Of a stretch of 64,000 nucleotides of DNA, positions 2,970-57,065 are shown in pieces. The stretch's first letter is position 1. The number at the start of each line of letters is the position of its first letter. This DNA is from Hygrophila difformis. Taxonomy: Eukaryota > Streptophyta > Magnoliopsida > Lamiales > Acanthaceae. A program made the position numbers and the translations under genes. Location of the stretch: NCBI GenBank assembly GCA_030278955.1, contig JAOANR010000003.1, positions 29,341,227 through 29,405,226 on the forward strand. The letters are read 5' to 3'. The notes below the pieces were generated by a model that was given only the letters and a program-made list of their open reading frames with translations, searched no databases and was not told where the DNA came from.

Positions 2970-4450
2970 ATCCCTCCCCCTTAAGATCATTCGTCCTCGA
3001 ATGAAATAAGGGTATGGTTTACTGGGCGATGATCACTAAATTGGAGTGAGATCCAATTACTAAAAGTATGGTAAATTCTGAATTATATCGAGAGTCAAAA
3101 TCTCCCGATACAAGAGGAAAGGATGCGAACAACTAAAATCGTTGTTTGCGGAGATAAGAATACTGATACGGTAGTCATTGTATAATGGAGCAAATATAAT
3201 TAAATAAGTGAACCAATAATGATATGACTCGGATTAGAAGAACAGAATGATACTGACTGATAGAAACTCGAAGTTATCGTAGGGATAATAAATAAGTAGA
3301 GAACAGGAGGAACTACAGAATTCCCGGTAAGTAACTACTCTACTTCGGGTAGAACTAATAGTATGAACCAAGAATGGCGAATGATAACGAGGAAGAAAGA
3401 GCGGGCTCCAAAGGATATACAAGAAGTTCTAGAAGACGTAAGGATGTCGATGGCAAAGTTATCATATAATTTTGGAGAACGATAGAGAAGTTTGAAGAAT
3501 TTAGATAGATGCATTTACACATATCAGTGTAGCTGAAATAAAACTCGAACTATTTAAAATATTAAAACGGCGGAAAGAATATCAATGCTGACAGAGTATC
3601 AATGAGAACCATTCAGATGGCCTCAAGAGTGATTTGGCAGTGCATGTCACAACCAAAAGAGTTTAACTCGGAGAGAAGAGCTGGTACTGAAACGTACACA
3701 GTAGGATTTTCGAAAGAAGCAACGAAAATATTAGAGATATTCACTTTCTCAAAATTAAGAAAATGAAGTGAAAGGATTAAAAATAAAGCATATCCAATAA
3801 ATAAATATATGTATATATATATATATATCAGCATTACGAGCATTACACCTTCCGTTATTAACTCGCTTCAACGCCTCTAATTAATCTCTGCGATATACTC
3901 AATTCGATGTCTCGAATTGAATGTCCTCGTAGTTCCGTCATTTGCTACAACAGGATGAGTTACCAGCAGTACATCTTTAAGATTTAAAGATGTCTGAGAT
4001 ATTATTCTCCTGATGTTCTAATCATCTGCTGACAATGGATCATCATCACATATCTGCATGGCATGGATGTGCGTGTCCCGTTGTTTAATACCTGCAATTT
4101 ACCTTAACGACAGATTCCATACATTATCACAATACCATAAGCTAAAAGAATTACCAAGCACGCAGTAGTAATAATAGAAATAATTATTCAGCAACTTCTA
4201 AACAAGTTGCTAACAGAATTTAAAGAATAGATCTCTTGGGATATCCTTGTTATTCGTCCATAGTTATCTCGCAAACCATGGCTCGAATCCACAAGGTGCG
4301 CAATATATAAACAGGGTACCACGGCATAAGAATAAATCTAACTAGCATATGACAATGCAAACCTATCCTATATGCAATCCCCGCACACCTCACCACATGT
4401 TTTTATCAAGTATTTAGCACATAATAGAGCAAGCCCGCTCTGATACCAAC
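2970..4450 (-). mobile_element. LARD1 internal domain, copy 1 (non-coding)
   Basis: A region of about 1.48 kb between a PPT (2970-2984, minus) with hairpin (2987-3004) and a primer-binding site (4437-4448). I see no protein domain; open frames at 3234-3422 and 3613-3843 look random. Having only PBS, PPT and non-coding filler is the definition of a large retrotransposon derivative. A near-identical second copy lies at 8160-9636. It holds a TA microsatellite around 3808-3830. Confidence 0.85.
4437..4448 (-). promoter_or_regulatory. Primer-binding site, tRNA-iMet type (LARD1)
   Basis: Minus strand TGGTATCAGAGC lies two bases after the LTR end. This is the usual plant PBS complementary to the 3' end of initiator methionine tRNA. 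Confidence 0.9.
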
Positions 4451-5460
4451 TGTAACGCCCCGAAAATTTAAAACTATTTTCGTGACGTCATCGCCGTATT
4501 AACTATTCTAAACTGTTGATCACTCAGCTTAGATAGTCAATACGAAGCGAGGTATAAATACAAACCTGTATCACACTCAAATAAATGCCAACAAAGCAGT
4601 ATAAAACCCCAGGAACAATACATGGCATATCCGGGCGACAAGCCCTGAAATAATATAATGACATGGTCGCACATCCAATACCAGGAATGACCAATAAGTA
4701 AATCATATGTGACACACCGATCACATTTAAGAAATAACATATATTTTCATCAAAGGCCAGGCAAGAGCATATAATATTTATTCTAAACAATAAATATAAT
4801 GGATGCAGCCTAGCTAGTTCGCTCAACCCGTACCCCAACATCGTGGTCTGCGCCATCCGTAGGAAGATCTATAAAACAAAAACAGATAACCGCAACAAGG
4901 TGTCAGTACATCGTACTGGCAAGGAATAGATATAGCTGGAAACGAGGCACACTAATGATAACACTATACTATATAAATAATAATAACAATAATAATAACA
5001 ATAATAATAACAATAATGATAACAATAATTAAGGACATAAAATAAATACAGAAAGTAAACATCACACCGTCCCATACCGGTGCTTCAACCACTGCAGATA
5101 AAATGAATGATGGATGATGAGATGATATGTTATGACCTAAGATGTCTATCTACCCTAAATGCAACACATAAGCATGTCTAGCGCGCACCTAGGTACCATG
5201 GTCGGTATTCCCTCCCATATAAGGGTCCACACCCCTTAATGGTCGAGAGACATACCCACAGTGCCCCCGCCGCGGACACTAACAGCTGAAATCGTGGCTT
5301 ACGGCAAGCGGGTCAGGCAAAGGGTCATGAGCCCTCTCCAGCCAAAATCAGACTAGGATATAAATCCTTTTCAGTCTCAATGCTTCTGGGTAGCGATCCC
5401 ACTATGCCCCTCATCGGATACCGATTCGTAAGCATAGCGTATCCTACCGTCGTGGCATTT

Positions 5461-5545
5461 CATATCATCACAGATATTCACATATCATCACAGATATTCA
5501 CATATCATCACAGATATTCACATATCATCACAGATACTCAGATTC
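5461..5545. repeat. 20-bp tandem repeat, short version in LARD1 LTR
   Basis: Four units of the same ATATCATCACAGATATTCAC repeat as in the F1 LTR, against about eight there. This shows the two LTRs share ancestry in this part. Confidence 0.85.
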
Positions 5546-7194
5546 AATTCAATCACATGTCCATACGTAAATCAACGCATCAGGACAAAATAAACAACTC
5601 ATCTCGAGTTATGTATAATCAGGGGTGTGCCAAGTCCCACGTATCGGCATCAACAACTCATCGCGAGTTAAGTATCAAGGGTGTGCCAAGCCCCACATAT
5701 CGGCACCAACACATATTCAGATTCAATTCCACACATGTCAATACGTAAATTACGTGTCATGACAAAATAAACAACTCATAACATCAAAATAGAAGCAACG
5801 CAAGATTCCATCCTAAACTAAGGCATGGTAGATCTTCTCTAATTGCAACTAAGTTCCAGGTTATGAGCATAATAATTAGTGAGATATTCGCAAGCAGTTC
5901 TAGCCTAATTCTAAGGCATCCTCATTATACGCGGGGAATCCGTACACACGAGAGTTCCCAATACTAAGGCAACATAGACTATACTAGTCTATTCCTAACC
6001 CCGATCTAATTTGCTATTCTAAACCTTGCCTGAATTATCAATCTTCAAGGCCTCCTTTGTACAACTTCAACTTTCACGTGGCTTCAATACAAGTCCACAC
6101 TCGTTCCCTGTACAATAATATCATCATAAGAATTAAAATAATTTAACAATACCAATTTCATCATCTCCTCTTATCTCCAACACCAACAACCACCTCCAAA
6201 CCAACCACCCAACACTTCTAATTCTATGTTTATCAACATAGAATTAGGTAACTCCAAAATAATTCAACAAAGCCAAATAATAAAGACTAATCCAATACCC
6301 AACATAATATTCTAAAATTTAAGCATTCAAGTATTCCCACATTAAATACTAGCAAGATATCTCAATTTATTTAACATAACCAAATACATCCATATCAAAT
6401 TTAATCAATCTAAATCGAACTCACATACTTTAACAATTCAAGTAATCAATACATCAATCCATAAATCCTCTAAATCACATTTCTACTCTAACCATTTTAA
6501 CTATTCAAGAATCCCAATATTCAACTATTAAAATTTAGCTATTCCAAGGATACCAATTAAAAATCCTTTCCAAACACTTTAATAAAGCACTCCAAGAATA
6601 CAAAAGAATTTAACCACATGTTAACATTATCAATTAAATTCATTTATCCTTTAACTAGCATACCAAGACTTGTATAGTAACCAAATAGTACAAGAATAGC
6701 ATAATGACATTTAAATTCAAGATTACTCAACAATTGTTTACCTATAAAAAAAAATCCAAATTTAAAGCTAACCAAAACCAAGACTTGAATCCCTTTTCAA
6801 TACTTAAAAAGATAAACAATTTCACAAAAGTCTATTACCACTTGAATTCAAGAATATACCAATTACTAAAAAAATTCCCAATTCCCCGAATAACACATCA
6901 ACCTCAAATTATACTTCAATTTCCATCTTCAAGCATTATACCCTCAATAATAACACAACAAATACCCAACCACAAACATATACAATAATTGCAACACATA
7001 ATCCCCAAATTCACAATCTAACAATTCTATTTCAATTAAAACAACCCAATCAAATGTCTATTCTAATAGAAATCTCCAAAACCTCATAAATCCACATTCT
7101 ACCAATTAATCAAAGAATTCAATACACCCAACAATTACCAAAGAATGATTAAACAAGAAAAAGAAATCCAAAAACTCAACACCACCTACACACT

Positions 7195-8159: not shown

Positions 8160-9636
8160 ATCCCTCCCCCTTAAGATCATTCGTCCTCGAATGAAATAAG
8201 GGTATTGTTTACTGGGCGATGATCACTAAATTGGAGTGAGATCCAATTACTAAAAGTATGGTAAATTCTGAATTATATCGAGAGTCAAAATCTCCCGATA
8301 CAAGAGGAAAGGATGCGAACAACTAAAATCGTTGTTTGCGGAGATAAGAATACTGATACGGTAGTCATTGTATAATGGAGCAAATATAATTAAATAAGTG
8401 AACCAATAATGATATGACTCGGATTAGAAGAACAGAATGATACTGACTGATAGAAACTCGAAGTTATCGTAGGGATAATAAATAAGTAGAGAACAGGAGG
8501 AACTACAGAATTCCCGGTAAGTAACTACTCTACTTCGGGTAGAACTAATAGTATGAACCAAGAATGGCGAATGATAACGAGGAAGAAAGAGCGGACTCCA
8601 AAGGATATACAAGAAGTTCTAGAAGACGTAAGGATGTCGATGGCAAAGTTATCATATAATTTTGGAGAACGATAGAGAAGTTTGAAGAATTTAGATAGAT
8701 GCATTTACACATATCAGTGTAGCTGAAATAAAACTCGAACTATTTAAAATATTAAAACGGCGGAAAGAATATCAATGCTGACAGAGTATCAATGAGAACC
8801 ATTCAGATGGCCTCAAGAGTGATTTGGCAGTGCATGTCACAACCAAAAGAGTTTAACTCGGAGAGAAGAGCTGGTACTGAAACGTACACAGTAGGATTTT
8901 CGAAAGAAGCAACGAAAATATTAGAGATATTCACTTTCTCAAAATTAAGAAAATGAAGTGAAAGGATTAAAAATAAAGCATATCCAATAAATAAATATAT
9001 GTATATATATATATATCAGCATTACGAGCATTACACCTTCCGTTATTAACTCGCTTCAACGCCTCTAATTAATCTCTGCGATATACTCAATTCGATGTCT
9101 CGAATTGAATGTCCTCGTAGTTCCGTCATTTGCTACAACAGGATGAGTTACCAGCAGTACATCTTTAAGATTTAAAGATGTCTGAGATATTATTCTCCTG
9201 ATGTTCTAATCATCTGCTGACAATGGATCATCATCACATATCTGCATGGCATGGATGTGCGTGTCCCGTTGTTTAATACCTGCAATTTACCTTAACGACA
9301 GATTCCATACATTATCACAATACCATAAGCTAAAAGAATTACCAAGCACGCAGTAGTAATAATAGAAATAATTATTCAGCAACTTCTAAACAAGTTGCTA
9401 ACAGAATTTAAAGAATAGATCTCTTGGGATATCCTTGTTATTCGTCCATAGTTATCTCGCAAACCATGGCTCGAATCCACAAGGTGCGCAATATATAAAC
9501 AGGGTACCACGGCATAAGAATAAATCTAACTAGCATATGACAATGCAAACCTATCCTATATGCAATCCCCGCACACCTCACCACATGTTTTTATCAAGTA
9601 TTTAGCACATAATAGAGCAAGCCCGCTCTGATACCA
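8160..9636 (-). mobile_element. LARD1 internal domain, copy 2
   Basis: Near-identical to 2970-4450, offset by about 5190, with the same PPT (8160-8174) and hairpin (8177-8194). It ends inside the PBS (GCTCTGATACCA, 9625-9636) where the gag leader of another element begins. With copy 1 and the single LTR between, it forms an I-L-I structure. Confidence 0.85.
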
Positions 9637-9840
9637 TCTTCAAGCATTTTATTCCCTTGTTGATCGCATTGTTTTTGGTTATCTGCGTGCCCTATAGGGA
9701 TGGATTGTGGTTTGTGAATCAAACCAGGATCAATCCTTGGGGATATTCCGGGAATTCTATACTTAATAATTGTTGTTCGGTAAAGAATTATTCATATTTA
9801 CCGAGTGTTACTGAATATCTCGTTACGTTACGAATATAGG
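9637..9840 (+). other. Gag leader (untranslated) of the plus-strand element
   Basis: Non-coding sequence between the junction in the LARD1 PBS and the gag ATG. No LTR or PBS of this element is left on this side, so the 5' end is lost. Confidence 0.5.
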
Positions 9841-11055
9841 ATGCCGCCGCGCAGGGGTGGAGAGCCCAGGAAGAGGGGAAGGCCTCGTAGGAATCAGGGG
9901 CCAGCTATTGGGGGTCGTGGACAGTACTATGAGGATGGTGGACTTGGCGATGATCACGTGGAAAATGTTCCAATTGAGGAACCTGTAGAGGTGGAGGATG
10001 ACTTGAACTATGAGGACGAACCAGTGCCTCCACCACCACCGCCACCGGTGCAGATGCCCATTGATCCTCAGTTTATGCAACATATGTTTAATGCTATGCA
10101 TGGGATGTATCAGGGGCAGGCGAATCAACCTGCACAACCACCACCCAGACCCGTGGATTACGTGCATCTAGCAAGGCATTATCAACCGCCGGTCTTTAGT
10201 GGAGGAGTAGACCCGGTTGCTCTGACTGATTGGATTTATCATATGGAGGAGATCTTCGAGAATATAGACTGCCCAGAGGATTGGAAGGTCAGAGTGGGAC
10301 GGCAGTATCTTACTAGACCAGCTCTCCATTGGTGGAGGTCGTGTAAGAATGAGCTTATGGCGAGACCCAACTTTTCATGGGAAGTTTTCTGTCATGCTTT
10401 GAGATCCCACTTTTTCACTACACAGATGATGAATGTTAAAAAGAGGGAATTTCTCAACCTAGAGCAAGCAGGAAATATGACAGTGTCTGAATACTATGGT
10501 CGTTTTGTGGAACTCATGTCCTACGTACCAATGCTAGTTGCTGATGAGGAAGATAAGGTTTCGAGGTTTGTGGATGGATTGAAGGCTGAGATCCGGACTG
10601 GGTTTAGCAACCAACATGCCTGCTTAGCTTCAGCATATGATCAGGCTTTATTCATTGAGAGAGCTCGCACTGATGCGCAGCGCGTGTGGGCCGCTCGTCG
10701 CAGAGATTCGGGGGGACCGAGTAGACCCCAGCATAGGCAGATGAGGCCGAGAAGCGGTGGAAGGACCTCTAGACCTCAGACTTATGCACAGCCACCGTAT
10801 AGAAGCGGACCCCACTGCTGGAATTGCGGACAGCAAGGACATTTGAGGTCACAGTGCCCACAGTTGGTAGGTCAAGTAGGAGGATCTACTTCAGGTGCGT
10901 CTGGTGGGAATGCGTCGCGTGGACGAGGTGCAGACCGAGGTCGTGGACCACAGAGGGGCCGTGGGGGCCGCCTCAACGTGATTGAGCGGGCTGAGCTAGA
11001 TGGGCGAGACGATGTCATGACTGGTAAGTTGTTTATTGTTCAACTTCAATCTTGA
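9841..11055 (+). CDS. gag: Ty3/gypsy Gag, full length as the unspliced product
   Basis: Structural capsid and nucleocapsid protein of an LTR retrotransposon; it packages the element RNA in cytoplasmic particles. The start is the ATG at 9841 (MPPRRGGEPRKRGRPRR), preferred over the in-frame GTG at 9805. It has a basic N-terminus, an acidic and proline-rich linker (about residues 40-75), a retrotransposon gag capsid domain (about 110-290; ALHWWRSCKNEL, GNMTVSEYYGRF), then a CCHC zinc knuckle CWNCGQQGHLRSQC at residues 326-339 and an RG-rich tail. Read without splicing the frame ends at TGA 11053-11055, inside what looks like an intron (11024-11113). Splicing would fuse Gag in frame to protease. 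The frame has no disabling lesions. Confidence 0.92.
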   Translation: MPPRRGGEPRKRGRPRRNQGPAIGGRGQYYEDGGLGDDHVENVPIEEPVEVEDDLNYEDEPVPPPPPPPVQMPIDPQFMQHMFNAMHGMYQGQANQPAQPPPRPVDYVHLARHYQPPVFSGGVDPVALTDWIYHMEEIFENIDCPEDWKVRVGRQYLTRPALHWWRSCKNELMARPNFSWEVFCHALRSHFFTTQMMNVKKREFLNLEQAGNMTVSEYYGRFVELMSYVPMLVADEEDKVSRFVDGLKAEIRTGFSNQHACLASAYDQALFIERARTDAQRVWAARRRDSGGPSRPQHRQMRPRSGGRTSRPQTYAQPPYRSGPHCWNCGQQGHLRSQCPQLVGQVGGSTSGASGGNASRGRGADRGRGPQRGRGGRLNVIERAELDGRDDVMTGKLFIVQLQS

Positions 11056-11113
11056 TCGACTTAACCATCTGTAACAAATGCCCAAGTAGTGCTTTATGTT
11101 ATTAAATGCGTAG
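11024..11113 (+). other. Putative 90-bp spliceosomal intron between gag and protease
   Basis: The 5' site is ATGACTG|GTAAGT, the 3' site is AAATGCGTAG|GTACTATA, and a branch-like CTTAAC lies near 11058. Its length is a multiple of three and it contains two in-frame stops (TGA 11053, TAA 11062). Removing it joins DDVMTG to [18 protein letters not shown], which is the usual continuous Gag-protease junction of plant chromoviruses (VVTGTL...DSGA). Splicing itself is inferred; no transcript data were available. Confidence 0.75.
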
Positions 11114-12230
11114 GTACTATACTAGTTGATAATGTGCCTGCTTATGCCTTATATGATTCGGGTGCATCATGCTCGTTTATATCATCGGAATTCGTAACCA
11201 ATAATGATATGGGACCACTGGAGGCTTATCAACTCCCTGTTACGCTACCTTCGGGAGACCTCATGCGAAGCCAGTGGATTAAACCCGATGCACAGATAAT
11301 CATCAAAGAGCGAGAGTTCAGAGCGAATCTAGTGGTGCTAGATTTGGCCGATTTTGACGTGATTTTGGGAATGGATTGGCTATCTAAGTACCGAGCCAGA
11401 TTAGACTGCGGGATACCAAGGATTTCCTTTACCGATGAAGAAGGTGAGCGAGTGATTTATTACCCTCCTAACATTCGAGTGGTATCTTCTGTCACTTTTG
11501 CAGCTTTAATTAGAAAAGGGTATCCGGTATACTTTTGTTCTGTGCGTGAGATGACGTCAGCACCCTCGAGTTCGACAATTACTCAGATTCCTATTGTCTC
11601 GGAGTTTCCAGATGTGTTCCCTGATGAGATACCCGGATTTCCGCCTGTCCGGGGGATAGACTTTGTCATTGACTTGGTACCGGGAGCGGCACCAGTTGCC
11701 AAGGCCCCTTACCGAATGGCTCCTGCCGAGTTGAGGGAGTTGAAGGAACAGCTTAAGGATCTATTAGATAAAGGATACATTCAACCTAGCAGTTCGCCTT
11801 GGGGAGCACCGGTAATCTTTGTCAAAAAGAAGGACGGAAGCTTACGGATGTGTATTGATTATCGGGGGCTCAATCAGATCACAGTCAAGAACCGTTACCC
11901 ACTGCCGAGGATTGATGACCTATTTGACCAGCTGAAGGGTGCATCCACATTCTCTAAGATCGACTTGAGATCAGGATACCATCAGATTCGGATGGCAGAG
12001 GGAGATCGTGAAAAGACAGCTTTTCGAACGCGGTATGGTCATTTCGAGTTCACAGTAATGCCGTTTGGGCTGACTAATGCCCCAGCAGTCTTTATGGACT
12101 TGATGCATCGCGTCTTTCGACCTTGGTTAGACGTTTGTGTGGTTGTCTTTATTGATGACATTTTGGTATACTCTTCCAGTGTAAAGACACACAAAGAACA
12201 TCTCAGGACAGTGTTGCAGGTGCTTAAAGA
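11114..12230 (+). CDS. pol: Protease and reverse transcriptase (Ty3/gypsy pol), 3'-truncated
   Basis: Aspartic protease with active site YDSGASCSF and the later [12 protein letters not shown] motif, followed by reverse transcriptase, which copies element RNA to DNA. RT blocks visible: [36 protein letters not shown] (first catalytic Asp), [14 protein letters not shown], and [13 protein letters not shown] (catalytic DD). An open frame exists from 11089, but the residues before 11114 are probably intron. The coding homology stops after RTVLQVLKD at about 12230, where an inverted F2 LTR begins; the last codons of the open frame (to 12285) are LTR. The RT connection, RNase H and integrase are missing. 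It is uncertain whether this belongs to the same element as the F1 integrase copies. Confidence 0.92.
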
Positions 12231-12631
12231 TAATACATCAAAGTTGCAGCGGAAATATAAATTGTGCAGCGGAAATAAGGTATAAGGGCCAACATGGCCA
12301 AAACACGGGTTAACAGTCCCGTTCATGCAAGTCATAATTTAATGCAGGGATTTAAAATAAAGATTTCCCCTAATGTTCCCATGTATGCATATGACGATGC
12401 ATATTCTTCGTACTCTGTAAGAAAAAGGAGATATATGGTTTGGGTCAGCAAAAACGCGCTGAGTAAGTTAACACATAGCATGGGTTAGGGGTTTCAAAGC
12501 CTTTAATTAATTTAATAAAAAGATTTCTTGTAGTAAAATGATTTGCAAGGCATAACTAAATAAATACTTAAAAATATTAAATCTTTTATTTTCCTCTCCC
12601 GTTACATAACCATTTCAACAATATTTAATTT

Positions 12632-12789
12632 AGCCGGCAATCCGGCGGCCGCAGCCATTTTCATAAAATCTGAGCTTTTTAATATAGATTTCCCGTTACG
12701 CCATCATCTCAACAATAGATAGCCGGTGATCCGGCGGCCGCAGCCAATATCGATAGTAACAGTTAGCCGGTGATCCGGCGGCCTCAGCC
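12632..12789. repeat. 25-bp GCGGCCGC hairpin motif, three copies
   Basis: Copies at 12632-12656, 12721-12745 and 12765-12789 read AGCCGGYRATCCGGCGGCC then GCAGCC or TCAGCC. Each can fold as GCCGG-loop-CCGGC. The motif flanks the variable minisatellite position in every F2 LTR. Confidence 0.8.
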
Positions 12790-12825
12790 AATTTCAAAAA
12801 TCATTTCTCATGTTTCAAGTTTATA

Positions 12826-12974
12826 TTTCAATCTCCATTCGGCAAGCATTATATTTCAATTGCCTTTCGGCAAGCAAGATATTTCAATTGCCTTTCGGCA
12901 AGCAAGATATTTCAATTGCCTTTCGGCAAGCAAGATATTTCAATTGCCTTTCGGCAAGCAAGATATTTCAATTA
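12826..12974. repeat. 28-bp minisatellite, 5 units (F2 copy a)
   Basis: The unit contains TTGCCTTTCGGCAAGCAAG, with an internal TTGCC-TTTC-GGCAA hairpin. Five units plus a partial one; the first unit is variant. The same position in copy h holds ten units. Open frames across it are a by-product of a 28-bp repeat without stops. Confidence 0.95.
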
Positions 12975-13080
12975 TATTTTATCTCAAAGGGATTCCCAAT
13001 CATTTAAACCTTAAAGGCTAATTTCATGTTTCGACAAGATTTCAAGATCTCTCAAGTTTAAAACCGATCGATGTCACAGT

Positions 13081-14060
13081 TTGCGCCTTTTCAGTTTAAA
13101 AATCCATTTCTTAGGCGATTGTTCGGAAATTTGCACAGCATCTCAAAAACATCCCAATGAACAACTTTCGTGTTTTAAGTTTTTCGGAAAAACGATGGGA
13201 AGCATGTCAAAAATCGAGTTTTCTACACAAATAGTATGCTGTCAGGATTCAGGTTTGACACCTCTCAAAGATTTGACTTTTTGACACATCAAATGGACTT
13301 CAAAAATTCTGAAATTTTACAGAGACATACTAGACTTGATTTCCAACAACTTTTGTTTAGATCACATAGATTGGTTCGGGCTAGAAGTGATAGGAATAAG
13401 CTCATCAAGATCGGTTATGAAATCTGTCATCCTTTGACAATTCTTAAAAACGCAGAATATGTTCGATACGATTTGGGGTATCAAAACTTGATGAAAATCT
13501 TTGAAATTTTTACACAATATAGCTTATGATCTTTGGATCAAAATCTTAGTTTTGAGTTTTCAGGTTTGAACACTCGAAGTAAGAGTTTTGCTCGTTGAGT
13601 TTGATTATGAAATCTGTCAAGGTTCTTGACATCGGTTCTAACGCAGATCGGATCGGCTCGGGTTTGGAGGTTCAAATCTCAATGAAAAATTCTAAAAACT
13701 TACAGTAATATTCCAAACTCATAGATCTACAATTCTTATGTTCAACTCCAATCCTAGATCGGTCTAGATCTAAGGTAAAAATAGCTAACAAGATTGAGAG
13801 TGAAATCTGTCCAAAGTTCTAAGATCCAGATTTAATGCTCTTCGGTTTTGGGTTGGTTTCAGGTTTCAAAACATCATGAAAAATTCTAAAATTTTTACAG
13901 AAGCTAGATCAAAGTCTTAGGAACACTTTTCATGTTTTGAGTTTTATTGTTTGAGCAGCTTTAGAGGTTCGAAAAATTCATACGAAAACGCTGCGTTGAG
14001 GGTTTCTTTTGTTGACAGATTTTTATTAATTTTCTTGAGTTGAATCTCTATGTTTGGTTG
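13081..14060 (-). repeat. Diverged tandem repeat of about 190 bp, five units (F2 copy a)
   Basis: The phrase GAAAAATTCTAAAATTTTTACAG or a close variant recurs near 13120, 13305, 13490, 13680 and 13875, and GAAATCTGTCAA followed by AACGCAGAT recurs about 135 bp into units 2-4. Spacing is 185-195 bp. Units are heavily diverged from each other but well conserved between LTR copies. Confidence 0.8.
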
Positions 14061-14069
14061 CATTTTAAG

Positions 14070-16647
14070 ATCAATAACACGTAGCCAAGTAAACAGGAAG
14101 CCAATGAATCATAATACAAATCCAGAAAGGAAACCTCACATTATAACAGACGTCCGGCTTACAAGCCTTATTTATGCGACATAACAGTCGACATATCAGT
14201 CTCATCTCAACCTGTCAGAGATATTAAGTAACACACAAGACAGAACGTAATGTAACGATCGGTACCACAAGCAGTACGAGACAAGGTAATCGAGTCATAG
14301 CATATTATTCAAGACAAGCACATAAGTCCACAACATGCTAATGCATCCCTAGGTAGATCACTCATCCCCAAACCCCACATCGTGCTCAGGCTCTGCGTCC
14401 TCCCCGGGAATATCTATACATAAAAAAAAACATAGCAAGGGTCAGTACAAGGTACTGAGCAAGAATAGAAGAATCGGCATAAGGGGAAACAAGAATAATT
14501 CTTGATTCCCTAGAAGTATATTTATACATATATATGGAGATATATTTCGTTTTTAAACATTTATTAGGCATAACATAAAAATTGAGCAGAGCAAATAAGT
14601 AAACATCACACCGTCCCATACCGGTGCTTCAACCACTGCAAATAAGATGAATGATGGATGATGAGATGAAATGTTATGACCTAGAATGTCTATCTACCTT
14701 AAATGCAACACATAAGCATGCCTAGCGCGCACCTAGGTACCATGGTCGGTATTCCCTCCCATATAAGGGTCCACACCCCTTAATGGTCGAGAGACATACC
14801 CACAGTGCCCCCGCCGCGGACACTAACAGCTGAGATCGTGGCTTACGGCAAGCGGGTCAGGCTAAGGGTCATGAGCCCTTTCCAGCCAAATTCAGACTAG
14901 GATATAAATCCTTTTCAGTCTCAATGCTTCTGGGTAGCGATCCCACTATGCCCCTCATCGGATACCGATTCGTAAGCATAGCGTATCCTACCGTCGTGGC
15001 ATTTCATATCATCACAGATATTCACATATCATCACAGATATTCACATATCATCACAGATATTCAGATATCATCACAGATATCAAGATTCATCACAGATTT
15101 CCACATATCATCACAGATATTCACATATCATCACAGATATTCAGATATCATCACAGATATCAAGATTCAATTCAATCACATGTCCATGCGTAAACCAACG
15201 TATCAGGACATAATAAACAACTCGTCTCGAGTTAAGTATAATCCGGGGTATGCCAAGTCCCACATATCGGCATCAACATATATTCAGATTCAATTCCACA
15301 CATGTCAATACGTAAATTACGTGTCATGACAAAATAAACAACTCATCGCGAGTTAAGTGTCAAGGGTGTGCCAAGTCCCACATATCGGCACCAACTCTCA
15401 CATCAACATAGAAGCGAATCAAGACTCGATCTCAACTAAGGCATAGTAGATCACCGCTAATCGCAACTAGGTTCATAGATTGTGAGCATAATGATAGTTA
15501 TGGCATGCTAGAAGCATAAGAAGAACTAAGGAAACACAAAGGACGAAGAATCGGAAAACGAGCGAACGAATCGCGCGGGCAGGGGAGCCCGCGCGCACCC
15601 GGCGCGGTTTTCCCAAGGAGGGCGCGCCGGCCCCGCGCCAAAGACGCAGGTCGCGTCGTTCGTGTCTCCGCGCGCTGCCCGCGCGGTGTTTGTGGAGAAG
15701 GCGCGCCAGCTGCGCGCCGTCCTGACAAGGACGTCGTTGACGTTCTTCTCACGCGCTGCCCACGCGCTTTTTGGCTAAAGGGCGCGCCAAGAGCGCGCCG
15801 ACACATCAGAATTGATGGAAATGGCGATTTCCGGCCATTCCACCGATTATGCCCCCATTTAGGCCTATCTCTACCCTTGCCTGGTATTGAGATGATCCAA
15901 ACTCTTCCAATACAGCTCCCCAACTCCTCCAAACACCTATACCAAGCTACACAACAAGAAATCAAGCTCCAAACATCAAAATTCATTCAAGAACATGATT
16001 TCATCATCATGAAACCATTTGAAGCTCTAAAACTGAAATCATCAACACCAAAATGGTCTCAAGTACTAACCTTAGCTTCCTTCAACACTAATTCAGCTTC
16101 CAAACAAGAATCCAAGCTTCAATTCAACACCAAAAGCAAGAATTTCTACAAACACCCAATTTTCGTCACCAACTTTCATCACCCCAAAACTCACTCAAAC
16201 ATCATCAAAATCAAGTGTAGAAACTAGGAAAATACTTACCAAAGCTTATATAAGTAATCCCCCAACTTGATTTGAGGAAGAAAACACCAATTCCAAGCCA
16301 AAATGAAGAACCTTATCTCCTTCAAGAGAGGTGACGGGAATGAGTGATGATGATGATGAAATGGGGTTTTTCCAATGCCCAATCTGATTTTTGAAGGGTT
16401 AAAATGGATCCGGGTCGGGTCACGGGTCTCGGGTCGGGTCGGAATGTGGGTTAAAAGAGTTACACCACTTGTCTTGACCACATTGCACCCATTTGAGCAC
16501 TTGACTCTTATTATCTAGTGAGTTGAACTCACTTAATCCCCCACTTAAATCTTCATTCCCTACAAAATAATCCACATACTACGTCTTTTGTTAATTAACC
16601 ATAACTAAATTAAATTAATTATGAGTTAATTAAATCGGGGTGTTACA
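14070..16647 (-). mobile_element. F1 chromovirus 3' LTR, copy 2
   Basis: The U3 start TGTAACACC is at 16647 (minus) and the far end is cut at 14070 by the F2 LTR junction. From 14894 on it matches window positions 34-1787 nearly exactly. It contains 20-bp repeats (15005-15168), the CpG-rich module (about 15560-15795) and a possible leader intron on the minus strand from GTAAGT at 16239 to TGTATAG at 14414. Open frames inside show no recognisable protein. Confidence 0.85.
15005..15168. repeat. 20-bp tandem repeat array, F1 copy 2
   Basis: The same unit number and variant order as 145-308. Confidence 0.9.
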
Positions 16648-16707: not shown

Positions 16708-18030
16708 TCACTGAATTGGAGTCAAATCCAATTCAGGATAACGCCCCGCCATGCTGTCCTCTGTCTCCCAAGTGGCATCCTCTACACCATGTCTCGACCA
16801 AAGTACTTTCACCATTTTGATCACCTTATTGCGAAGTATCTTTTCTTTAGTGTCTAGAATCGCCACGGGGTATTCTTCGTATTCTAGGTTGTCATCCAAC
16901 TCCACCTCCTCCGGTTGTATAACCTTGTTAGGATCCGATATAAACTTCCTCAACTGAGAGACGTGGAAAACGTTGTGCACCTTTCCCACCTCAGTTGGCA
17001 ATTCTAACCGGTAAGCGACCTTCCCAATCTTTTTAGTGATCTCATAGGGGCCTATAAATCTGGGACTCAGTTTCCCCTTCTTCCCAAATCGTCTCACGCC
17101 CCTCATGGGTGACACTCTCAAGAGTACCCAATCTCCAATCTCGAATTCAATGTCTCTCCTGGACAAATCAGCATAACTCTTCTGACGATCCTGAGCTTCC
17201 TTCATTCTGTCTCTGATCACTCGTACCACTTCCGTGGTTTGTTCAATAAGTTCAGGACCCATCACCACTCGCTCTGAAGGATCACTCCAACACAAGGGCG
17301 TTCTGCACTTTCTTCCGTATAAGGCCTCGAAAGGCGCCATACGAATACTCGCGTGATAGCTATTGTTGTAGGAGAACTCCACCAAAGGTAGATGTTCCTC
17401 CCACGATAATTGAAAATCCATCACACACGCCCTCAACATATCCTCCAAGGTTCTAATGGTCCTTTCGGTCTGTCCATCAGTCTGAGGGTGCCACGCAGTA
17501 CTCATACTGATCTGTGTCCCAAAGGCTGTCTGCACTTCCTTCCAGAACCTTGACAGGAATCTGGAATCTCTGTCGGAAATGATTTCCCGAGGAATACCAA
17601 AACGTCTAACCACATGTTGGAGGTAAGCGCCAGTCAACTGTTGCATGCTCCAGTTCAATCTCATTGGTATAAACACAGCACTCTTGGTTAGTCGGTCCAC
17701 AACTACCCAAATAGTATCAAAACTGCTCCGTGTCCTGGGTAGCCCGGTGACAAAGTCCATAGCGATGGACTCCCATTTCCAAGTAGGAACATCCAAAGGT
17801 TGTAATAAGCCTGAAGGTCTCATGTGCTCGGCTTTCACCTTCTGGCAAGTGGAACACCTAGACACAAATTCTGCCACTTCCTTTTTCATGCCTTTCCACC
17901 AATAGTTTTGCCTCAAATCCTTGTACATCTTTACTGCTCCCGGATGTACGGAGTAAGGTGTGCAATGTGCTTCCTCCATAATTTTTCCTTTCAGCGCCTG
18001 ATCTTTCGGAGGCACACACCAACGGTCCCC
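16708..18030 (-). CDS. Integrase with chromodomain, F1 chromovirus (copy 2, lacks pol upstream)
   Basis: The open frame is 443 codons (to 18039, from a TTG) and covers a nearly complete integrase. Zinc-binding residues are H25, H32, C62 and C65 (AHCTPYSVHPG, RCSTCQKVKAEH). Catalytic residues are D95 (AMDFVTG), D156 (ISDRD) and E192 (GQTERT), giving the D-35-E spacing of retroviral integrases. GPY/F starts near residue 330 and the chromodomain is about 385-436, which in the family targets insertion to modified histones. RNase H and RT are missing: the frame is cut near 18030 by F2 LTR copy b at a microhomology (CCAAACTC/CCAAAAACTC). There are no stops, and one residue differs from copies 1 and 3 (DFQL versus DFQG). 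Confidence 0.92.
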   Translation of the reverse strand, partial: GDRWCVPPKDQALKGKIMEEAHCTPYSVHPGAVKMYKDLRQNYWWKGMKKEVAEFVSRCSTCQKVKAEHMRPSGLLQPLDVPTWKWESIAMDFVTGLPRTRSSFDTIWVVVDRLTKSAVFIPMRLNWSMQQLTGAYLQHVVRRFGIPREIISDRDSRFLSRFWKEVQTAFGTQISMSTAWHPQTDGQTERTIRTLEDMLRACVMDFQLSWEEHLPLVEFSYNNSYHASIRMAPFEALYGRKCRTPLCWSDPSERVVMGPELIEQTTEVVRVIRDRMKEAQDRQKSYADLSRRDIEFEIGDWVLLRVSPMRGVRRFGKKGKLSPRFIGPYEITKKIGKVAYRLELPTEVGKVHNVFHVSQLRKFISDPNKVIQPEEVELDDNLEYEEYPVAILDTKEKILRNKVIKMVKVLWSRHGVEDATWETEDSMAGRYPELDLTPIQ

Positions 18031-20371
18031 AAACTCCAAAAACTCTCCCTAAGCCAAACACCTTCCGGCGAACTTCCGGCGAATTTTCCGGCAATCAAAT
18101 CCTACCAAGGAAGTGTGTAGATCAAGGATTGCAGGCTTTGGATTGTTGGTAAGATGTTAATCAAGTTTCCATATGGTTTTAAGATCATAAACATCATCCT
18201 AACTTACGAATCTTCGTATTCAAACACAAATCGGAGCCAAGGGAAGAATAAATCGGGTGGAAGAGATTCGTTCGTGACATCCCGTGGATTCCGGACGACC
18301 CCGTGACTTCCTAGACATTATCCCCACTGTAAGTTAACCTTACTATGGTTTTGGGTGACTTAAAATGCAACCAAACATAGAGATTCAACTCAAGAAAATT
18401 TATAAAAATCTGTCAACAAGAGAAACCCTCAACGCAGCGTTTTCGTATGAATTTTTCGAACCTCTAAAGCTGCTCAAACAAAAAAACCCAAAACATGAAG
18501 AGTGTTCCTAAGACTTTGGTCTAGCTTCTGTAAAAATTTCATAATTTTTCATGATGTTTTGAAACCTGAAACCAACCCAAAACCGAAGAGTATTAAATCT
18601 GGATCTTAGAACTTTGGTAGATTTCACTCTCAATCTTGTTGGTTATTTTGACCATGGATCTAGGCCGATCTAGGATTGGTGCTAAACATGAAAGTTGTAG
18701 ATCTATGAGTTTAGAACATTTCTGTAAGTTTTTAGAATTTTTCATTGAGATTTGAACCTCCAAACTCGAGCCGATCCGATCTGCGTTGGAACCGATGTCA
18801 AGAACCTTGACAGATTTCATAACCAAACTCGACGAGCAAAACTCTTACTTCGAGTGTTCAAACCTGAAAACTCAAAACTAAGATTTTGATCCAAAGATCA
18901 TAAGCTATATTGTGTAAAAATTTTAGAAATTTTCATCAAGTTTTGATACCCCAAATCGTATCGGACATATTCTGCGTTTTTAAGAATTTGTCAAAGGATG
19001 ACAGATTTCATAACCGATCTTGATGAGCTTATTCCTATCATTTCTAGCCCGAACTAATCTTTGAGCTCTAAACAAAAGTTGTTGGAAATCATGTCTAGTA
19101 TGTCTCTGTAAAATTTCAGAATTTTTGAAGTCAATTTGATATGTCAAAAAGTCAAATCTTTGAAAGGTGTCAAACCTGAATCCTGACAGCTTTTTGTTTG
19201 AGTCGAAAACTCAATTTTTGACATGCTTCCTATCATTTTTCCGAAAAACTCAAAACACGAAAGTTGTTCGTTGGGATGTTTTTGAGCTACTGTACAAATT
19301 TCAGAACAATCGCCTAAGAAATGGATTTTTAAACCAAAAAGGCGCCAACTGTGACATCGATCGATTTTTGAAATCTTTTAAACAACGATCGAGACGTTGG
19401 AATTACGATAAAGCTATATTTTTGAAAAATCCCGTTACACCAAATAAAAACATTTTCTGTAAAAGAATTCTTTAGAAACATTGGGGAATTTATGACCAAG
19501 TTTGATATGATCAATATGGCCAGACGGCTTGTGGACATAAGAGCCCAAGCGAACGGCTAGTGGACATAAGAGCCCTAGCGAATGGTCGACCAAACGGCTT
19601 GTGGACATAAGAGCCCAAGCGAACGGCCAGTGGACATAAGAGCCCTGGCGAATGGTTATTTATAAATATTGATTATGAGGATTGCGGTCACAAGAGCCCT
19701 GGTGAATGATGAACTATAAAAGAAACGAAAAATATTTTGAGAAGTGATATTTTTGAAATTGGCTGAGGCCGCCGGATCACCGGCTAAATGATACTTTTGA
19801 AATTGGCTGCGGCCGCCGGATCACCGGCTAAATGATATATTGATAAAATGGTTGGGTAACGGGAGAACAAAATATTTAAGGTTTTTAAGTCTTATGCCTT
19901 GCAAATCATTTTCCTACAAGAAATCTTTTTATTAAATTTAACTAAAGGCTTTGAAACCCCTAACCCATGCTATGTGTTAGCTTACTCAGCGCGTTTTTGC
20001 TGACCCAAACCATATATCCTCTTTTTCTTACAGAGTACGAAGAATATGCATCGTCATATGCATACATGGGAACATTAGGGGAAATCTTTATTTTAAATCC
20101 CTGCATCTAATTACGACTTGCATGAACGGGAATGTTTAATCCCGTGTTTTGGCCATGTCGGCCCTTATACATTATTTCCGCTGCAACTTATAAATTCCGC
20201 TGCAACTTTGATGTATTATCTTTAAATTATTTATGAATGGGCTGTTTGAATATTTTAAATCCTGAAAAACCATAGCCTTACATCTCTTTAGTGAGCCCGG
20301 AGAAACCGTGTCTTGCTAGGGAGGTGTGGCGGTGGCATCCCGGCCTGGGTTACCAAAACCGGGGTGTTACA
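18031..20371 (+). mobile_element. F2 LTR copy b (5'-truncated, intact 3' end)
   Basis: Plus orientation, ending CCAAAACCGGGGTGTTACA at 20371. It contains a leader block (CTCTCCCTAAGCC), a possible intron from GTAAGT at 18329 to TTTTTCTTACAG at 20033, diverged repeats of about 190 bp (about 18365-19345) and a 29-bp minisatellite. U3 with the CpG-rich module is missing. Copy i (42743-45083) is almost identical. No PBS follows the LTR end, so what lies beyond (20372 on) is probably a target or a rearrangement partner rather than its own internal domain. Confidence 0.85.
19524..19651. repeat. 29-bp minisatellite, 4 units in two pairs (F2 copy b)
   Basis: Unit core ACGGCTTGTGGACATAAGAG; the units sit as two adjacent pairs with a 12-bp spacer. 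The flanks (TTTGATATGATCAATATG on one side, GAGGATTGCGGTCACAAG on the other) also flank the unrelated array of about 36 bp in copies l and m. Confidence 0.9.
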
Positions 20372-56326: not shown

Positions 56327-57065
56327 TCCTCCCCCCCTTAAGATTACAGTTATGTCCCCATAACTGCCTATGTATTATTCACAACCAGGTTCGGGTATCA
56401 TCGCATATGATCCTTCCTCAGTTTTCTTCTAGGTGCCATTTCTGTCATTAAGCACGCGAAGATGAGTTCCTAAGTGAATCAAGATCTAGGACTAAGGCAA
56501 CGTTAGTCTTAAGTTAGCGCTTCTAAGCCAAGACTCAAGGTCATGTCGAGTTCTGAGGTAGGACTGTTTCTTATCACCGATAATTCACATAAAAAGAGTT
56601 AGTGTAAATATTTATGTATGCATATGCATGTGTGATCTCCCCCAAAAAAAATTTTATGCATGCATTTGTTTATCCATGGGTTTTAAAAATAAATTTATTC
56701 CATGGATAGGTTAAAATAAGGATAAAAGGTTTGGGCCACTATATTGGGCCGAAAGAAAATTATTTGGGCTTTAAATAAAAACAAGGCTATTGGGCCAAAA
56801 TAATTTCTTAGGCTTCTAAAAAAAATTTGGGCTAAAAATTTGGGCTTTAACTTCAAAATAATAATTGGGCTCTTTGAAATATACTACTAGTTTATAAATG
56901 ATAACTTTAAAAATAATAATCTTGAAAATAATAGTTTTAAAAAAAATAATCCGGGCTCTTTAAAATAGTAGTTTTAAAATATTCCGGGCTCTGATACCAA
57001 CTTTGGTATCAGATATTTTCTTTAAAATAAATAGCTTTAAAATAGTCTGGGCTCTGATACCAACT
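56327..57065 (-). mobile_element. LARD2 internal domain (739 bp, non-coding)
   Basis: PPT and hairpin A (56347-56366) at one end, PBS at the other. Between them lie an AT-rich stretch, many TGGGCC/GGGCTTT words (56720-57060) and a second, palindromic PBS-like copy. No open frame worth calling. Confidence 0.9.
56989..57063 (-). promoter_or_regulatory. Primer-binding site (57051-57062) and upstream PBS-like palindrome
   Basis: TGGTATCAGAGC (minus) lies three bases from the LTR end at 57066. A second copy at 56989-57000 is part of the palindrome CTGATACCAA-CT-TTGGTATCAG (56991-57012), about 62 bp away. Confidence 0.85.

Follow-up and report, generated by a model that had tools for sequence, protein, structure and literature searches.

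According to a review of December 2025, plant long terminal repeat elements are generally without introns, with Ogre and EVADE as the exceptions (PMC12786077). Bagy2, along with CRR, is also on record as a spliced plant element (PMC3735527), as are two elements from sunflower (PMC7730604), so the splicing of RNA from plant retrotransposons is in itself no novelty. Here, we examine a 64,000-nucleotide (nt) stretch of Hygrophila difformis DNA (contig JAOANR010000003.1, placed at G000:C9:29341227-29405226), which as a whole is called the window, and which carries one fragmentary copy of a large Ty3/gypsy family with a 90-nt segment set between gag and protease. Our reading, to which we give a probability of roughly 0.77, is that this segment is a phase 1 GT-AG spliceosomal intron, whose retention would yield Gag and whose splicing would yield Gag-Pol, the RNA and protein steps being predicted from genomic DNA. 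That the segment is a real and conserved intron at this boundary seems very probable, and, granted a real intron, it quite likely sets Gag against Gag-Pol. The means by which plant retrotransposons produce an excess of Gag over Pol is a long-standing question, for which the family would offer a clear, high-copy case of a short intron.

Several described systems share some of these features. In Ogre (Ty3/gypsy, Tat lineage), an intron between two frames is partly spliced and so allows a whole polyprotein (PMC6317226), but it lies between GAG-PROT and reverse transcriptase (RT), whereas the intron proposed here lies before the protease, with the RVP_2 and RVT_1 domains both downstream, and is 89-91 nt long, in an element whose end shows a weak chromodomain match. 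CRR (rice centromeric) is likewise a Ty3/gypsy element with spliced transcripts (PMC3735527), though in our family splicing would excise a short stretch of non-coding sequence and fuse two frames. Bianca has two frames parted by a stretch averaging 172 bp, yet belongs to the Ty1/copia superfamily, and the accessible part of that source does not report splicing for it (PMC6317226). In BARE1, EVADE and Drosophila copia, splicing also shifts the balance of Gag to Pol, but with the roles reversed, the spliced RNA being Gag-only and the unspliced RNA encoding Gag-Pol (PMC3735527, PMC12786077). The Beta chromovirus families and LORE1 have the same domain order as our family, though in the former Gag and Pol form one uninterrupted frame (PMC3605345) and the latter has a unique long frame (PMC2832683).

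The gag/protease boundary in the window

The features of the window copy are as follows.

9841..11023, plus strand: gag, exon 1, with capsid and CCHC zinc knuckle (open frame; Pfam)
11024..11113, plus strand: putative 90-nt intron, GTAAGT...GTAG (ends constant in copies; exactly absent at 10 genomic places)
11024..11029, plus strand: candidate 5' splice site GTAAGT, preceded by CTG (end diversity among copies)
11053..11055, plus strand: TGA, predicted Gag terminator on unspliced RNA (open frame; Gag of 404 residues with the tail KLFIVQLQS)
11060..11065, plus strand: CTTAAC, branch-point-like, 48 nt upstream of the intron 3' end (aligned site in distant copies)
11110..11113, plus strand: candidate 3' splice site GTAG, then G (diversity 0 in the family)
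11114..12225, plus strand: pol, exon 2, with protease and the first part of RT (Pfam RVP_2 5.3e-27, RVT_1 3.3e-33)

A preliminary description of this DNA had pointed to splice-like sites at 11024 and 11113 with CTTAAC between them, and the sequence bears this out, with a donor G/GTAAGT (final exon base at 11023, GTAAGT at 11024-11029), CTTAAC at 11060-11065 and an acceptor GCGTAG/GT (GCGTAG at 11108-11113). Base 11023 is the first base of a split codon, which makes the intron phase 1, and codons for DVMTG and TILVDN stand before and after the GTAAGT...GTAG segment. The window's open frames, gag at 9841-11055 and protease-RT at 11065-12285, are in the same frame, and the two in-frame stops described earlier are both present, the second (TAA, 11062-11064) sitting within CTTAAC; a length that is a multiple of three, on the other hand, turned out not to be general, since related copies have 89, 90 or 91 nt. 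Pfam matches in the gag exon are to Retrotrans_gag (5.7e-19), Ty3_capsid (8.9e-9) and zf-CCHC (9.4e-5), while the match of the pol piece to the protease profile begins at profile position 24, right at the junction. The pol match of the copy ends near 12230, and upstream, as judged by eye, related copies diverge from it near 9660-9670.

In composition, the segment shows the A+T- and T-richness over flanking exons that is a trait of plant introns, with 67% A+T against 48% and 54% in the flanking exons and 38% T against 22% and 29%; none of 2116 90-nt windows of flanking coding sequence is as A+T-rich. Moreover, GTAAGT occurs 61 times on the two strands of the window (25 and 36), and three of these sites match at least two of the three bases of the consensus CAG that precedes a 5' splice site. 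Among the three, under criteria that were set after seeing the case, only the site at 11024 adds a G at -1, a YAG/G acceptor 70-150 nt downstream, a branch-like motif and an A+T content of at least 65%.

Conservation of the segment among copies

A search of the 915-Mb genome with the pol piece of the window copy gave 110 scored copies (97-100% identical) from 25130 first-look candidates, and 90 of these were read. The segment is present in 85 of the 90 copies and exactly absent in two (L075 and L076), with the rest comprising two larger deletions (L044 and L079) and one recombinant (L065). It measures 90 nt in 63 copies, 89 nt in 15 and 91 nt in seven, and in all 85 it starts with GT (GTAAG in 81, GTACG in four) and ends with GTAG, so that the ends are constant whereas length and frame are variable. 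All 84 copies readable in the gag frame (one further copy has a changed anchor that the pattern missed) have a stop within the segment, with tails ranging from GK to GKLFIVQLQS before it. In many of the intron-bearing copies, pol is open over 1131-1154 residues, and no in-frame ATG for Pol lies ahead of the protease active site (DSGA) in 86 of the 87 unfused copies, with one not judged.

Diversity was compared in 84 copies (the 90 minus L002, L044, L065, L075, L076 and L079). Here, the mean is 0.068 in the segment interior, as compared with 0.052 and 0.038 at the third codon positions of gag and pol, respectively. First and second positions have 0.010 and 0.006 in pol, and 0.021 and 0.022 in gag, which is thus less constrained. 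At the donor, diversity is 0 at +1, +2, +3, +5 and +6, with A or C at +4 (0.092), and it is also 0 over the last four bases of the segment. Because the interior is more diverse than third positions, and first and second positions of pol vary little, the exons are evidently under selection and the segment, except at its ends, is not; it resembles DNA free of constraint, bounded by constrained ends and set between two coding parts.

More distant copies carry the segment as well. With the pol piece of L096, an intronless copy, a protein search that is blind to the junction scored 150 matches from 10886 candidates, and the first 23 were examined, 20 of them newly read over 380 bases. These comprise 19 copies with the segment, three exactly without it (L096, L097 and L098, originally found through their joined junction) and one rearranged copy (L109, with apparently unrelated sequence nearly to the acceptor). 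Segment lengths in the 19 are 89 nt in eight, 90 nt in five and 91 nt in six, the donors are GTAAGT in 16, GTATGT in two and GTAAGA in one, and the acceptor is invariably GTGTAG. A branch-like site 48-49 nt before the end reads CTAAC in 18 and CTAAT in the other, and CTTAAC of the window copy, which, going by the general consensus, we take to be its branch site, occupies the same aligned place. As both groups of copies have the segment, it predates their split, of about 24% difference in DNA and 20% in protein.

Copies without the segment

A genome-wide search for the joined junction (30 nt, up to three mismatches) found 10 places, with none for a control pattern, while the intact donor (19 nt, up to two mismatches) was found at 429 places, with two for the control. 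At all 10 intronless places, ATGACTG runs directly into GTACTATA; L095 and L098 each show a single base change. In a midpoint-rooted tree built from the flanking coding sequence of 114 copies, of which 10 lack the segment and 104 carry it, parsimony places the intron at the root, followed by eight separate losses, and the intronless copies appear as seven single tips and three in one group (two of these being identical neighbours). Intron-bearing copies stand on both sides of the deepest split, and gain of the intron, with intronless copies as the old state, was rejected for this reason and because of the state at the root.

Several intronless copies sit next to intron-bearing ones. L096 groups with L099-L101 (support 99), which carry an 89-nt intron and share 224 of 225 exon sites with it, L098 with L103-L105 (99), L076 with L083 and L057 (92) and L091 with L117 (96), while L095 lies within a 13-copy group (100) holding both kinds. 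L092 and L093, which lie 6.4 kb apart and group with L094 (97), show no difference over the stretch read and probably represent one loss event. Between L075 and L071 (89-nt intron), there is no difference from -556 to +337 except for the missing 89 nt. The two intronless copies L075 and L076, which differ from one another at about 2.9% of sites, both have the primer-binding-like TGGTATCAGAG upstream and a fused frame of 1539 residues, as compared with 1142 or 1154 in many unfused copies; likewise, the fused frame of L096 has 1552 residues against 1139 in a copy sharing the same pol piece.

Such exact and recurrent loss would follow from reverse transcription of spliced RNA. In genomic DNA, the earlier proposal of an intron finds strong support, from GT...AG ends that stay constant while the interior and length change, and from the repeated exact loss in separate copies. 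The intronless copies, standing beside intron-bearing ones, serve as natural controls, and the ratio of about 10 to 429 places provides a natural measure of spliced-RNA copy-back and survival, much like the classic marked-intron test, but unassisted.

Proposed control of Gag and Gag-Pol and alternative explanations

A switch between Gag and Gag-Pol is the best reading of the anatomy, with its gag stop inside the segment and its lack of an ATG for Pol. Host splicing would take the segment out of part of the transcripts; translation of unspliced RNA would end inside the intron to give Gag, and spliced RNA would give Gag-Pol, so that coat protein would probably be abundant and enzyme scarce. Most of the genomic RNA serving as template for reverse transcription would be unspliced, whereby the intron would stay in the family, and the occasional reverse transcription of spliced RNA would leave an intronless, fused copy. 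Because the protease active site has no in-frame ATG upstream of it in 86 of the 87 unfused copies, Pol and protease would come only from spliced RNA, and since persistence of the intron needs an unspliced template, both RNAs should exist.

Some points weigh against this interpretation. The segment ends share a GGTA direct repeat (GGTAAGT and AGGTACT), and thus a 4-nt microhomology deletion could yield the same joined product, with GT-AG being one of five equal placements of the ends. In the tree, L097 is poorly placed (support 41) and support for L075 is low (24), and a single loss could have been passed among copies when co-packaged RNAs recombined, such that the eight losses are a parsimony count and not proven events. 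Moreover, the support for both splicing and the switch is drawn from genomic DNA, with the 90 copies read coming from the 110 scored among 25130 candidates.

Among the alternatives, we regard as unlikely, though worth weighing, that the intron sorts RNA pools without setting a ratio, with spliced RNA kept for translation into a Gag-Pol that is cut by protease, and unspliced RNA, little translated, kept for packaging. Distinct pools of RNA for translation and replication are described in barley BARE (PMC3735527), and, according to another source, most plant groups encode Gag-Pol in one frame, so a fused product can work (PMC6317226). However, with gag open up to the segment and stopping inside it in all 84 readable copies, any translation of unspliced RNA can yield Gag.

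It is very improbable that the segment is a spacer passed by readthrough, bypass or frameshift, with the intronless copies being chance microhomology deletions. While Gag and Pol share a frame in the 90-nt copies (63 of 85) and the segment ends do share GGTA, the 89- and 91-nt forms (22 of 85) set Pol in the other two frames, some with pol open over 1137-1154 residues, and the window copy has two in-frame stops; fixed-frame recoding by frameshift or readthrough was rejected on these grounds, as all three frame relations occur. A separate start for Pol was also rejected, as all the unfused copies but the unjudged one are without an in-frame ATG before DSGA, and this, together with the recurrent exact loss, speaks against the spacer too. 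As for chance deletion, a single 2.3-kb copy holds 664 pairs of microhomologies that are 4 nt or longer and lie 60-150 nt apart, but in the 90 copies, L065 aside, there are only two deletions of 60-150 nt, both on the GGTA pair. Other deletions of at least 12 nt measure 15, 16, 588 and 589 nt, and the recombinant L065 has gaps of 12-81 nt.

Least credible of all is that the segment is a deleterious insertion in a non-autonomous family whose mobility depends on helper copies, for although some copies, including that in the window, are fragmentary, pol is under selection and open over 1131-1154 residues in many intron-bearing copies, and the segment ends are fixed while the interior varies.

With regard to the two larger deletions, L044 and L079 are without 589 and 588 nt, respectively (late gag and the intron), with the deletion end near the same acceptor. 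The L044 joint is compatible with a second donor (TAC/GTACCA) spliced to the same 3' splice site and the L079 joint resembles a 7-nt microhomology jump, with microhomology visible at both. A genome search for the L044 joint returned L044 and one place with two mismatches, as compared with four for the control, and neither L044 nor L079 was counted as evidence.

Lineage and homologues in other plants

In L003, the pol domains follow the order RVP_2, RVT_1, RNase H, Integrase_H2C2 and rve, that is, protease, RT, RNase H and integrase (PR-RT-RH-INT), and the pol of that copy (L003, L119) runs on past RNase H and integrase, ending in a weak match to the chromodomain. At the end of L003 pol, there is a Tf2-1-like SH3 domain, with a Chromo match (E 0.0054) whose 17.1 bits fall below the Pfam cutoff of 25.1. 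The family is likely a chromovirus, and may belong to the Tekay/Del clade. A search of solved structures gave Ty3 Gag-Pol as the best match, in its RT part, which has no bearing on the intron. We take CRR to be a chromovirus as well. In the searchable literature, no chromovirus with an intron at the gag/protease boundary was found, although such a case may still be in print. The suggestion in the preliminary description of a new place for an intron in a chromovirus fits this literature, but is tempered by the chromodomain score and by CRR being already known as spliced (PMC3735527).

To other plants, the comparison was made with part of L075 around the junction, taking the best 120 of 3509 matches under length limits that leave out full-length polyproteins. 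The joined junction, DVMTG-T, aligns with these homologues, and 113 of the 120 listed cross it (28-48% identical to the L075 piece), 111 of them without a gap of at least five residues, while seven do not cross. An uninterrupted protein is thus the common state, with the caution that some of the crossing homologues are plant gene models, in which annotation may already have removed an intron. The closest relatives listed depart from this pattern: the Gag proteins P0001 and P0002 (40 and 45% identical) end 16 and three residues past the junction with unalignable tails, and P0036, a pol with 66% identity over 349 residues (the highest among the matches listed), starts inside the protease and is without gag. 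By their sequence, these three hint at the same gag/pol split in other plants, though contig ends, start-codon choice or mutations could also account for where they end or begin. A Gag profile search gave nothing closer than P0001 and P0002, and no relatives were confirmed in viral contigs and genome contigs. There is, in our view, an even chance that intron control is lineage-wide in these Ty3/gypsy elements of chromovirus-like order, with spliced RNA copied back repeatedly but selection keeping the intron, fused copies founding no families, and close relatives in other plants perhaps sharing the arrangement.

Other features of the window and its surroundings

Adjoining the truncated pol, seven pairs of inverted repeats lie at 12488-14069 and 18359-19959, with arms of 80-391 nt that are 73-97% complementary (92-97% in four pairs). 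Between them is an integrase fragment (16708-18048, minus strand) that, by eye, is close to the pol end of the family. L002 (G000:C9:29337058-29338170), about 15 kb from the window copy and in inverted orientation, matches the window copy exactly in the pol protein piece and shares its unusual intron base, which suggests a local inverted duplication. Direct repeats at 14597-15346 and 5053-5779 are 88.5% identical over 750 nt; the second direct repeat has a short tandem array, visible as the peptide ITDIHISSQ repeated in the translated open frames near 14938-15213. A primer-binding-site-like 12-mer matches the minus strand exactly at 4437-4448, 9625-9636, 56988-56999 and 57051-57062, as compared with a mean of 0.22 in shuffles with one mismatch allowed, and these four matches perhaps mark other, minus-strand elements.
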